DNA of 64,000 nucleotides from Halanaeroarchaeum sp. HSR-CO (GTDB taxonomy: Archaea > Halobacteriota > Halobacteria > Halobacteriales > Halobacteriaceae). The stretch lies in the NCBI RefSeq assembly GCF_024972755.1, contig NZ_CP087724.1, positions 1,240,001 through 1,304,000 of the forward strand. The letters run 5' to 3'. A program made the translations under genes and the position numbers. Below the pieces are notes generated by a model. The model searched no databases, was not told the DNA's origin, and was given only the letters and a program-made list of their open reading frames with translations. Every line of letters starts with the position of its first letter. Position 1 is the first letter of the stretch. Of this stretch, positions 36,524 through 42,105 are shown piece by piece.

Positions 36524-38005
36524 ATGGTCGAACTTCCCTATCTGACGCCGCAGTACCTGCTCGGTCTCACCGCGCTCGTGCTGTTGCTCTACGACACGAT
36601 CGCACCGAACACCCGCCGAAACGAGGTGCTCGCAGGCATCGCCACGGTTGGTGGGCTCCTGACTGCCGGGACGAGCGCCTGGTTCCTCTCGGCTGGAACC
36701 GGGCTCACGCCGACGGAAGCGTTCAGTAACACGCTCGTCGTCGACCAGATGAGTCTGTTCTTCACGTTCATCGTGGGGAGCGTCACGTCACTGGTCGTCG
36801 TCGCGAGTTACGACTACGTGGCCGACGAGCCACACATCGGCGAGTACTACTCGCTGGTCGCGCTCGCGGCGACCGGGATGGCACTGATGGCGGCGGCGAA
36901 CAGTCTCGTCACCGTGTTCATCAGCATCGAACTGGCCTCCCTTCCGTCGTACGCGCTGGTTGCGTACCTCAAGACGAACAAAGGGAGCGTCGAGGCAGCG
37001 CTGAAGTACTTCCTCGTCGGGGCGCTCTCATCGGCGATCATGGTCTACGGGATCAGTCTCATCTACGGGGCGACCGGGACGCTGCTCCTCGGACCGATCG
37101 GTGACGCGGTCGCCGACCTCGAGGCCGGACTCTTCGGCGTCCTCGGTCTCGGGGTCGTGATGATGGTCGGTGGCTTCCTGTTCAAGACGGCCGCCGTCCC
37201 GTTCCACTTCTGGGCACCGGACGCCTACGAGGGCGCCCCGGCCCCCATCAGTGGTTTCATCTCGTCGGCCTCCAAGGCGGCCGGGTTCGCGGTCGCGTTC
37301 CGCGTCCTGCTCGAGGCTTTCCCGATCGACGTCGTCGGAGCGACCATTCCATGGACCTGGCTGTTCGTCGTCGTCGCGGCGGTCACGATGACGCTTGGTA
37401 ACTTCGCCGCGGCCGTTCAGGACAACGTCAAGCGGATGCTCGCGTACTCCTCGGTCGGCCATGCGGGCTACGTGCTCATCGGTCTCGCCGCCATCGGCGG
37501 TGGAACGACGCAGGCCGATACCCTCGTACTCGGTGCAGCGATGATGCACCTGCTCGTCTATGGCTTCATGAACACGGGCGCATTCCTGTACATCGCACTC
37601 GCGGAGTACTGGGGTGTGGGTCGTACTTTCGAGGACTACAACGGTCTCGCGTCGGTGGCCCCCTTCGCCTCGGTCGCGATGACGGTGTTCATGTTCAGCC
37701 TGGCCGGGCTACCGGTCGGTGCTGGCTTTCTCTCGAAGTACTTCCTGTTCGCCGGCGCCATCGAGGCCGGCTTCTGGTGGCTCGCCGCCATCGCCGCGGT
37801 TAACAGCGCCCTGTCGCTTTACTACTACTCGCGCGTGGTCAAGGCCATCTGGATCGAGGAACCGGCCAGCGACTTCAGCGTCGACGGGACCCCCACGGGC
37901 CTGTACCTGGCGGTCATCGGGGCCGGTGTTATGACGGTCGCGTTGCTGTTCGTGTTCGACCCGGTGGCCCAGTGGGCCATCGACGCGGCCGCGATTTTGC
38001 TCTGA
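36524..38005 (+). CDS. nuoN: Complex I subunit N (antiporter-like proton pump)
   Basis: 493 residues. FISIELASLPSYALVAYLKTNKGSVEAALKYFLVGALSSA, TAAVPFHFWAPDAYEGAPAPISGFISSASKAAGF and QDNVKRMLAYSSVGHAGYVLIG match NuoN. It is the last gene of the operon. The T-rich CCCTTTTTACC 20 bp downstream could serve both as a terminator-like run for this operon and as the TATA element of the next gene. Confidence 0.97.
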   Translation: MVELPYLTPQYLLGLTALVLLLYDTIAPNTRRNEVLAGIATVGGLLTAGTSAWFLSAGTGLTPTEAFSNTLVVDQMSLFFTFIVGSVTSLVVVASYDYVADEPHIGEYYSLVALAATGMALMAAANSLVTVFISIELASLPSYALVAYLKTNKGSVEAALKYFLVGALSSAIMVYGISLIYGATGTLLLGPIGDAVADLEAGLFGVLGLGVVMMVGGFLFKTAAVPFHFWAPDAYEGAPAPISGFISSASKAAGFAVAFRVLLEAFPIDVVGATIPWTWLFVVVAAVTMTLGNFAAAVQDNVKRMLAYSSVGHAGYVLIGLAAIGGGTTQADTLVLGAAMMHLLVYGFMNTGAFLYIALAEYWGVGRTFEDYNGLASVAPFASVAMTVFMFSLAGLPVGAGFLSKYFLFAGAIEAGFWWLAAIAAVNSALSLYYYSRVVKAIWIEEPASDFSVDGTPTGLYLAVIGAGVMTVALLFVFDPVAQWAIDAAAILL

Positions 38006-38053: not shown

Positions 38054-39469
38054 ATGGTGACCTGGCTGATGCTCGGTGCTGGCGGGGTCGGGCATGCCCT
38101 CGTCGATAGCATCGGTCATCGAAGCGGGTCTCTCCAGGTCGTCGACCCCGACGAAGCACACGTCGAACAGCTGCGAACCGAGAAGATAGACGCGGTCAGT
38201 GGCGACATTACGTCCGAAGAGCGGATCGATAGTCTCGGTGTCGATCCGGCTATCGTCGTCGTAGCGAGTGCCGACGTGGGTCGAAACCGAGTCGCCGCAA
38301 CTGTGGCCAGGTCCGTCTTCCCCGACAGTTACATCATCGCGTTCGCGGGCGAGGAACCCACGCGGGCGGACGTCGCCGCCATCGAGGCGGTCGCCGATCG
38401 TGTCTTCGACCCTGGGGAGGCATTCCTCGATCATCTCTCGTCGGTCGTCAAAGACGGTCAGGCGAAGCGGCTTCGTGATCTCCACGCGACACTGGATGGT
38501 ATCGACGGTCGGCTCGGTATCTTCACGCACGACAATCCGGATCCAGACGCAATCGCGTCGGCCGTTGCCCTGGCAGAGATCGCGGATTACCACGGCGTCG
38601 AGGCCCAGCCAGCGTACTTCGGCCGCATCTCTCACCAGGAGAATCGTGCATTCGTCAATCTCCTCGACCTCCGCCTCGAGCAGTTCGAGCCGGGCGAACC
38701 ACTCGATTTCGATGGCATCGCTCTCGTGGACCACTCGACCCCTGGCGTCAACGATCAGCTACCGGCCGACACGGTCGTCGACATCGTCTTCGACCATCAT
38801 CCCTCGAAACGGACCGTGACGGCCGACTTCGTCGACGTCCGCGAGTCGGTCGGGGCGACGAGCACGCTCCTCGTGGATTACCTCAAAGGATTCCACATCG
38901 ACATCGACATCGCTGTCGCGACCGCCCTCCTCTATGGCATTCGGGTGGATACGAACGACTTCGCACGGGGCATCACGGCGTCGGATTTCGACGCGGCGGC
39001 ATTCCTGATATCCTACGCCGACATCGACGTTCTCAAACGCATCGAGAGTCCGTCCATCTCCGCGGATACCTTCGAGATCATCGCCCGCGCCATTCGCAAT
39101 CGCGATCGTCATGGCAGCGTCCTGACCTCGTGTGTCGGTTCGATATCGGATCGGGATGCCCTCGCTCAGGCCGCCGATCGCTTGCTCAATATGGAGGACA
39201 TCGGCGTGACACTCGTCTATGGCTACATGGATGGGACGATATTGGCATCCGGTCGTGCCCGAGGGGTCGACATCGACCTCGGTGAGACGCTCAGAATCGC
39301 GTTCGATGACCTGGGCAGTGCCGGCGGGCATCCGGATATGGCCGGTATGCAGATCCCACTGGGGCTCTTCGAGAGCGTCGACGCCGAAGAGGGGCTGACG
39401 GCGATGGTCGAGGACGTCGTCACCACGAACTTCTTCGACGTCCTCGATCCCGACGAAATCGAAGAGTGA
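38054..39469 (+). CDS. RCK/TrkA-N domain fused to DHH-DHHA1 phosphoesterase
   Basis: 471 residues. Residues 1-125 form a TrkA-N/RCK Rossmann domain (WLMLGAGGVGHALVDSI, VVDPDEAHVEQLR). Residues about 150-330 carry the DHH phosphodiesterase motifs: TIFTHDNPDPDAIASAVAL, VDHSTPGVNDQ and DIVFDHHPSKRTVTAD. The rest is DHHA1 with the glycine-rich RARGVDIDLGET and SAGGHPDMAGMQIP. DHH-DHHA1 enzymes hydrolyse nanoRNA, cyclic di-AMP or pAp. With an RCK nucleotide-sensing domain in front, a role in cyclic dinucleotide or short RNA turnover, tied to potassium physiology, is plausible but unproven. The CBS-ParB gene begins 35 bp downstream. Confidence 0.9.
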   Translation: MVTWLMLGAGGVGHALVDSIGHRSGSLQVVDPDEAHVEQLRTEKIDAVSGDITSEERIDSLGVDPAIVVVASADVGRNRVAATVARSVFPDSYIIAFAGEEPTRADVAAIEAVADRVFDPGEAFLDHLSSVVKDGQAKRLRDLHATLDGIDGRLGIFTHDNPDPDAIASAVALAEIADYHGVEAQPAYFGRISHQENRAFVNLLDLRLEQFEPGEPLDFDGIALVDHSTPGVNDQLPADTVVDIVFDHHPSKRTVTADFVDVRESVGATSTLLVDYLKGFHIDIDIAVATALLYGIRVDTNDFARGITASDFDAAAFLISYADIDVLKRIESPSISADTFEIIARAIRNRDRHGSVLTSCVGSISDRDALAQAADRLLNMEDIGVTLVYGYMDGTILASGRARGVDIDLGETLRIAFDDLGSAGGHPDMAGMQIPLGLFESVDAEEGLTAMVEDVVTTNFFDVLDPDEIEE

Positions 39470-39504
39470 CGGGTTTTTGAGGGGGGCGCGCATACACGGC
39501 ACCG

Positions 39505-40311
39505 ATGGACGAGGCCCTCGATCACGACGGTGGGAAACCCAGGGTCAAAGACTACATGACTCGGGAGGTGTCGACGGTCTCACCGGATCAGACGGTACGT
39601 GAGGTGTCGACGCGGATCGTCGAGAGCGACGATCACAACGGATTTCCGGTGACGGAAGGGCGGAAGGTGCGCGGGTTCGTCAGTGCCCGCGATCTGTTGC
39701 TCGAGGACGAGCGCGAGCCGATATTCAAGGTGATGAGCGACAAACTCATCGTGGCCCACCCGGAGATGAAGGTGACCGACGCCGCTCGCGTCATCCTGCG
39801 GTCGGGCATCCAGAAACTTCCAGTGGTCGACGACGCCGGGAATTTGGTCGGAATCATCTCCAATGCCGACGTCATCCGGAGTCAGATCGAACGGGCAACC
39901 CCCGAGAAGGTGGGGAAACTCAAGCGGACGCTCGAATCGATCCACGGTATCGAGGCCCGAGAGGAGCGACGGACTATCGACCTGTCGAGGTTGACGCCGA
40001 CACAGGGGAAGGTCTACGCGGACGAACTGGAAGGGCGAAGCTACGAACTCGATCGCGGGTTGACCGAGCCACTCGTCGTCATCGACAACGCGGGCCAGTT
40101 GCTGCTGGCGGACGGCCACCATCGCGTAATGGCAGCCCAGCAGGCTGGAATTGACGAGATGGACGCCTACGTTATCGTCCTCGACCGACGCGTCGACCTG
40201 GGGATGGCCAAAACGGCCAAAAAGGAGGGGCTGGAGCATCTCGATGATATCTCGATCGTCGACTACGCCAGACATCCGCTCATGGAGACGATCGAACGAC
40301 TGAACGAGTGA
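39505..40311 (+). CDS. CBS-pair protein with ParB/SerK-like domain
   Basis: 268 residues. Residues about 10-135 hold two CBS motifs (VKDYMTREVSTVSPDQTVREV and FKVMSDKLIVAHPEMKVTDAA) that usually bind adenine nucleotides. Residues about 160-260 form a ParB/Srx-type domain with LTPTQGKVYADELEGR, EPLVVIDNAGQLLLADGHHR (the DGHHR signature) and VMAAQQAGIDEMDAYVI. In Thermococcus, a related DGHHR protein is the free serine kinase SerK, so small-molecule phosphorylation is a real alternative to a partition role. It follows the RCK-DHH gene at 35 bp and probably shares its transcript. Confidence 0.88.
   Translation: MDEALDHDGGKPRVKDYMTREVSTVSPDQTVREVSTRIVESDDHNGFPVTEGRKVRGFVSARDLLLEDEREPIFKVMSDKLIVAHPEMKVTDAARVILRSGIQKLPVVDDAGNLVGIISNADVIRSQIERATPEKVGKLKRTLESIHGIEAREERRTIDLSRLTPTQGKVYADELEGRSYELDRGLTEPLVVIDNAGQLLLADGHHRVMAAQQAGIDEMDAYVIVLDRRVDLGMAKTAKKEGLEHLDDISIVDYARHPLMETIERLNE

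Positions 40312-40395: not shown

Positions 40396-42105
<1,710 letters not shown>

Follow-up and report, generated by a model that had tools for sequence, protein, structure and literature searches.

Reciprocal retention of the catalytic site and the RCK motif in two haloarchaeal RCK-DHH proteins, one of them encoded next to a CBS-ParB gene

Two full-length RCK-DHH proteins with reciprocal motif states were found in the haloarchaeal genome analysed: the first, p1, keeps the DHH catalytic site, while the second, p2, keeps the RCK motif, a division that is new here. The p1 gene lies just upstream of a gene coding for a protein with two CBS domains and a ParB-type fold (CBS-ParB), and the preliminary description of the locus had seen a possible signalling pair in these two genes. 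With moderate confidence, we consider a different joint account to be probable: p1 would be a phosphodiesterase of the GdpP kind, CBS-ParB an independent regulator, the two would owe their proximity to the conserved nuoLMN block of haloarchaea, of which both are part, and the RCK-DHH function would be split between p1 and p2.

The locus and the p1 enzyme

The window, i.e. the whole stretch of 64,000 nucleotides that was analysed, belongs to a 2.79-Mb haloarchaeal genome whose CBS-ParB is nearest in identity, among named relatives, to those of Halobacterium and Halodesulfurarchaeum. Its relevant features are as follows.

36524..38005, plus strand: nuoN, which ends the nuoLMN block, usually upstream of the pair (synteny)
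38054..39469, plus strand: RCK(TrkA_N)-DHH-DHHA1 protein p1, 471 aa (ORF, Pfam, AF2 model, Foldseek)
38060..38452, plus strand: RCK_N (TrkA_N) Rossmann domain of p1, residues ~3-133, with GAGGVG at residues 8-13 (Pfam)
38519..38941, plus strand: DHH domain of p1, residues 156-296, with HDNPDPD and VDHS, DHH at 38792-38800 (Pfam)
39113..39409, plus strand: DHHA1 domain of p1, residues 354-452, with the SAGGH motif (Pfam)
39470..39504, no strand: intergenic gap between p1 and CBS-ParB, 35 bp
39505..40311, plus strand: CBS-CBS-ParB-fold protein, 268 aa (ORF, Pfam, AF2 model with a pLDDT of 85)
39544..39909, plus strand: CBS pair of CBS-ParB, residues 14-135, with G-x-x-S-x-x-D adenosyl-binding motifs (Pfam)
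39946..40308, plus strand: ParB/SerK-fold domain of CBS-ParB, residues 148-268 (profile search)
39997-40005 and 40111-40125, plus strand: PTQ and DGHHR (residues 203-207) motifs of CBS-ParB, the Gln of PTQ standing at the SerK Glu30 position

Both genes are present in all 122 near-complete genomes of the order, and the two ORFs are therefore real genes; their coordinates confirm the 35-bp spacing given in the preliminary description. The upstream genes are presumed, from their sequences, to be nuoL, nuoM and nuoN, and the gene downstream, at 40396, is likewise taken to be methylmalonyl-CoA mutase-like. The fusion of RCK with DHH-DHHA1 was recovered by Pfam with all three domains above the cut-off (TrkA_N 50 bits, DHH 45 bits, DHHA1 48 bits), and the RCK_N and CBS calls back the nucleotide-binding nature that had been ascribed to both domains, through which NAD or ATP may be sensed.

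As for the catalytic part, the active site of p1 (H159, D163, D165, D226, D247, H248 and H249) is complete in all 73 distinct p1 proteins, as is the GGH of DHHA1. A Foldseek search with the AF2 model (pLDDT 89.9) gave TM1595 and the catalytic domain of GdpP, in complex with pApA or c-di-GMP, as its top ranks, with DhhP and Rv2837c also retrieved; the match to GdpP 5xt3 extends across DHH and DHHA1 (E 1.7e-20). When the p1 family profile was run against the PDB, the best match was the GdpP c-di-AMP phosphodiesterase 9n0l, with 84 bits over DHH and DHHA1, vs. ~42 bits for enzymes of the NrnA/Rv2837c type. Together with the DacZ (diadenylate cyclase) encoded in the same genome, these searches agree with the enzyme class proposed earlier, p1 being plausibly a DHH-DHHA1 phosphodiesterase of the c-di-AMP/pApA class. 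It would be a soluble enzyme whose substrates are most likely the c-di-AMP made by DacZ and/or pApA.

Compared with GdpP (PDB 9n0l, 5xsi, 5xt3, 5xsp), its best match in both sequence and fold, p1 has the same DHH-DHHA1 order and active-site residues, but it is archaeal, its activity is predicted, it carries RCK_N in front instead of the GdpP N-terminal part and no membrane part was seen. GdpP proper starts with a membrane-PAS-degenerate GGDEF arrangement, of which p1 has no trace in Pfam, where RCK_N is called. The RCK_N domain matches KtrA, TrkA and, best of all, the RCK domain of an archaeal 'exopolyphosphatase-related protein' (3llv) in the PDB profile search. With KtrA and TrkA, p1 has the RCK_N fold in common, but it is fused to an enzyme and an RCK_C (TrkA_C) domain gave no Pfam match; in KtrA and KtrC, it is RCK_C that binds c-di-AMP. 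The GxGxxG motif of RCK, GAGGVG in the window protein, is intact in 37 of the 57 p1 orthologues with readable N-termini and decayed in the other 20. With RCK_N only and a motif so often decayed, the suggested link to potassium is not supported through this domain.

The c-di-AMP context is general in these organisms: a diadenylate cyclase (DAC) domain was found in every one of the order's 122 near-complete genomes and in 61 of the 64 genomes checked in the phylum. Family f33, with neither DAC nor RCK-DHH, speaks for the proposed role of p1, and the reduced f2 genomes, with DAC but no RCK-DHH, speak against it. In Haloferax volcanii, c-di-AMP is essential, and two 2021 papers describe its c-di-AMP and pApA phosphodiesterases as still unknown while proposing candidates in a supplement (PMC8646023, PMC8305020). 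Among the papers listed in a literature search on TrkA-N with archaeal DHH proteins and c-di-AMP, none contained the term TrkA-N. In the source genome, the DacZ gene (L174:7862-9498, minus strand) overlaps the following mechanosensitive-channel gene, which suggests a coupling of c-di-AMP to osmotic conditions.

An alternative, which we hold to be somewhat unlikely, is that p1 is a housekeeping enzyme of the NrnA kind, i.e. a nanoRNase or a pApA or pAp hydrolase, with no role in c-di-AMP turnover. Substrate promiscuity is common among enzymes of the DHH-DHHA1 type, a DHH enzyme cleaving only pAp exists in archaea (PMC8268124), so that the fold does not reveal the substrate, and one genome (G167) has RCK-DHH and CBS-ParB with DAC absent. 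Against it stands the profile match, far better to GdpP than to NrnA along the whole of DHH-DHHA1, as well as the broad co-occurrence of RCK-DHH with DAC, the latter carrying hardly any weight, as the two are found nearly everywhere. The true phosphodiesterase could also be p3, a third DHH-DHHA1 gene of the genome, which has no RCK domain.

Reciprocal motif states of p1 and p2

The second full-length RCK-DHH protein of the genome, p2 (G000:C1:1706019-1707404; L172:7993-9462, minus strand), is 41% identical to p1, present throughout the order and more conserved than p1. Only 3 bp separate its open frame from that of the next gene downstream, which codes for a DEAD-box helicase carrying an MrfA Zn-binding domain.

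A motif census was carried out on distinct proteins, comprising 73 p1 (57 with readable N-termini), 40 p2 and 31 single-copy RCK-DHH proteins taken as outgroup. All 40 p2 proteins have GxGxxG together with the acidic residue that follows, and only two have an intact DHH active site, the motif being changed to DHY, DHF, DHN and so on. In the single-copy RCK-DHH of the phylum's other archaea, which have the same architecture as p1, the RCK motif and the DHH site are both intact (31/31), whereas the haloarchaeal p1 has a decaying RCK domain and is accompanied by p2. The mean pairwise identities varied in the same direction for RCK, with 0.39 in p1 vs. 0.73 in p2, and were close for DHH (0.65 and 0.68, respectively). 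In many lineages, the RCK_N of p1 appears to be losing its dinucleotide-binding motif.

In a maximum-likelihood tree built from the DHH part and rooted on p3, p1 and p2 form separate supported clades (98/92 and 100/99). The single-copy RCK-DHH proteins found in other archaea join the p2 clade (97/97), with p1 outside, and the tree does not favour a p1/p2 duplication within haloarchaea, which had been considered. The outside position of p1, a fast-evolving protein, may be due to long-branch attraction. Concerning families f10 and f12, the intact enzyme closest to p1 is a DHH-DHHA1 protein with no RCK (L321, L322, L323), found beside a retained p2; this protein may represent the last stage in the loss of RCK, unless it lacked the domain from the start.

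With its DHH site intact and that of p2 decayed, p1 becomes the main candidate for the phosphodiesterase acting on c-di-AMP/pApA in haloarchaea, and p2 a candidate sensor of the pseudo-enzyme type: p1 would keep catalysis, and p2 the RCK sensor with its active site lost. More tentatively, an ancestral single-protein sensor-phosphodiesterase may have been divided into a catalytic p1 and a dead p2, the latter sensing a dinucleotide, for instance NAD(H), or binding c-di-AMP/pApA, and controlling p1 or another target in trans. Any such control between the two proteins is our reading of these motif states.

Neighbourhood of p1 and CBS-ParB across genomes

Among the 134 haloarchaeal genomes in which both genes were located, p1 immediately precedes CBS-ParB in the same orientation in 110, the remainder consisting of 12 with the two genes within 10 kb and 12 with the genes apart; they are separated in genus g10 and in several others. 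Most of the loci inspected show a larger block, nuoL-nuoM-nuoN / RCK-DHH / CBS-ParB, and the mutase gene often comes after it, some way downstream. Of 80 named loci in haloarchaea, 63 have p1 linked to CBS-ParB and 45 have nuoN adjoining p1, with 15 loci keeping the pair without a neighbouring nuoN. The gap between the two genes is loosely conserved, with a median of ~175 bp, 60 bp or less in 13 and more than 100 bp in 96 of the 110 genomes.

Outside the haloarchaea, RCK-DHH and CBS-ParB are both widespread across the phylum, and their adjacency was found in none of the 52 genomes with both genes located: the nearest same-contig distance is 14.7 kb, and the genes are on different contigs in 30. 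Families f19, f22 and f24 have RCK-DHH with no full CBS-ParB match, while in the reduced f2 genomes RCK-DHH is missing but DAC is present, as is CBS-ParB, located after nuoN. Family f33 (G188, G204) seems to lack RCK-DHH, CBS-ParB and DAC altogether. The 16 non-haloarchaeal CBS-ParB loci analysed for neighbours have no common partner, a NOG1-like GTPase, an HTH-CBS protein, Hsp20, a sugar nucleotidyltransferase and others each being found near the gene at five loci at most.

The absence of adjacency in these 52 genomes, the loose gap and the independent losses therefore lead us to read the pairing as conserved haloarchaeal synteny, that of the nuoLMN block, a dedicated module being possible but not indicated. 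The case for the signalling pair put forward earlier is accordingly weak, as each gene also occurs alone. Regarding the suggested profiling of the pair together with DacZ, the genes do prove nearly universal within the order, which makes the comparison uninformative at that level, and the linkage is not kept in the 52 genomes examined beyond the haloarchaea.

What such a module would entail is that CBS-ParB senses the level of AMP/pApA or c-di-AMP set by p1 and acts downstream. Order and strand, kept in so many haloarchaeal genomes, argue for it, and the persistence of the pair without nuoN points to a possible functional tie of some kind. The CBS pair also counts in its favour: its adenosyl motifs are kept in ~93% of CBS-ParB proteins, and its structure matches CBSX2-AMP and AcuB-AMP/ADP (Z ~18), superposes also on DarB and has OpuCA with c-di-AMP among its matches. 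The separation of the genes in g10 and other genera, the gaps mostly above 100 bp, the families with one gene only and the lack of adjacency in all 52 non-haloarchaeal genomes nevertheless make this module unlikely.

The CBS-ParB protein and its predicted role

For CBS-ParB, Pfam gives two CBS domains (88 bits) and a ParBc_2-like region below the cut-off (16.8 bits). In the PDB, the profile of the C-terminal domain retrieves chains of ParB (4umk, 6sdk), Spo0J and SerK, with 4umk and 6sdk scoring above SerK. Note that the ParB call rests on this profile search, since the structure search with the CBS-ParB model was dominated by the CBS pair and barely probed the other half. SerK, the free serine kinase TK0378 (PDB 5x0b), has the ParB-like fold and DGHHR in common with CBS-ParB, but CBS-ParB has the additional CBS pair and a Gln (Gln167, in PTQ) aligned with SerK Glu30. 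We take Glu30 to be the catalytic residue of SerK, the depositors having mutated it to Gln (5x0j) and Ala (5x0e). Both PTQ and DGHHR, the latter corresponding to the GxxR or P motif, are found in 159/159 distinct CBS-ParB proteins. The CBS pair, DGHHR and ParB fold of the preliminary description are hence retained, and its SerK-like kinase is not.

The fusion itself is already known: a 2025 survey reports CBS-ParB-CTPase as the commonest archaeal ParB-fold fusion, present in Methanobacteriota and Haloarchaea, and takes the NTP-binding GxxR (P motif) as a mark of the ParB-CTPase fold (PMC12704722). These fusions have the same architecture as the window protein (a CBS pair and a ParB fold, chromosomally encoded); the survey's text on them gives neither function nor gene neighbourhood, and the Gln found where SerK has Glu30 is an observation of the present analysis.

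Given this Gln, the conserved DGHHR and the CBS motifs, CBS-ParB is likely an adenylate-controlled, NTP-binding regulator, in which an independent adenylate-sensing CBS pair would act on a ParB-type fold, and probably not a serine kinase. A ParB-related clamp on DNA, switched by CTP or NTP, seems very unlikely to us: the higher scores of 4umk and 6sdk, the conserved GxxR and a box I Gln that resembles the ParB NPxQxR motif are in its favour, but no helix-turn-helix or C-terminal dimerisation domain was detected by Pfam, and the survey, published in PNAS, finds that archaea have no genuine ParABS system on their chromosomes (PMC12704722). Least probable of all is a SerK-type kinase under CBS regulation that would phosphorylate small molecules with ADP or ATP, for despite the invariant DGHHR and the profile matches to SerK chains, the position mutated by the crystallographers is Gln in all 159 proteins and the best SerK match is precisely the E30Q mutant chain 5x0j.

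A few variants of CBS-ParB were also encountered. In family f28 (G192, G213, G160, G178, G185), the matches end near profile position 248 with an in-match stop (TAG, TAA or TGA), reflecting either a shortened C-terminus without the HPL motif or a reading problem. A stand-alone ParB-fold copy of 120 aa without CBS (G044:C2:8793-9152) shares 68% identity with the CBS-ParB C-terminal half, and a divergent second CBS-ParB paralogue (46% identical) occurs in two genomes (L187 and L188, in G070 and G126).

As a whole, the analysis calls for caution in annotation, as haloarchaeal p2 should not be annotated as an active phosphoesterase, nor CBS-ParB as a serine kinase. For the Haloferax volcanii question, the motif census names a universal and catalytically intact candidate (p1), its decayed twin (p2) and an alternative (p3).
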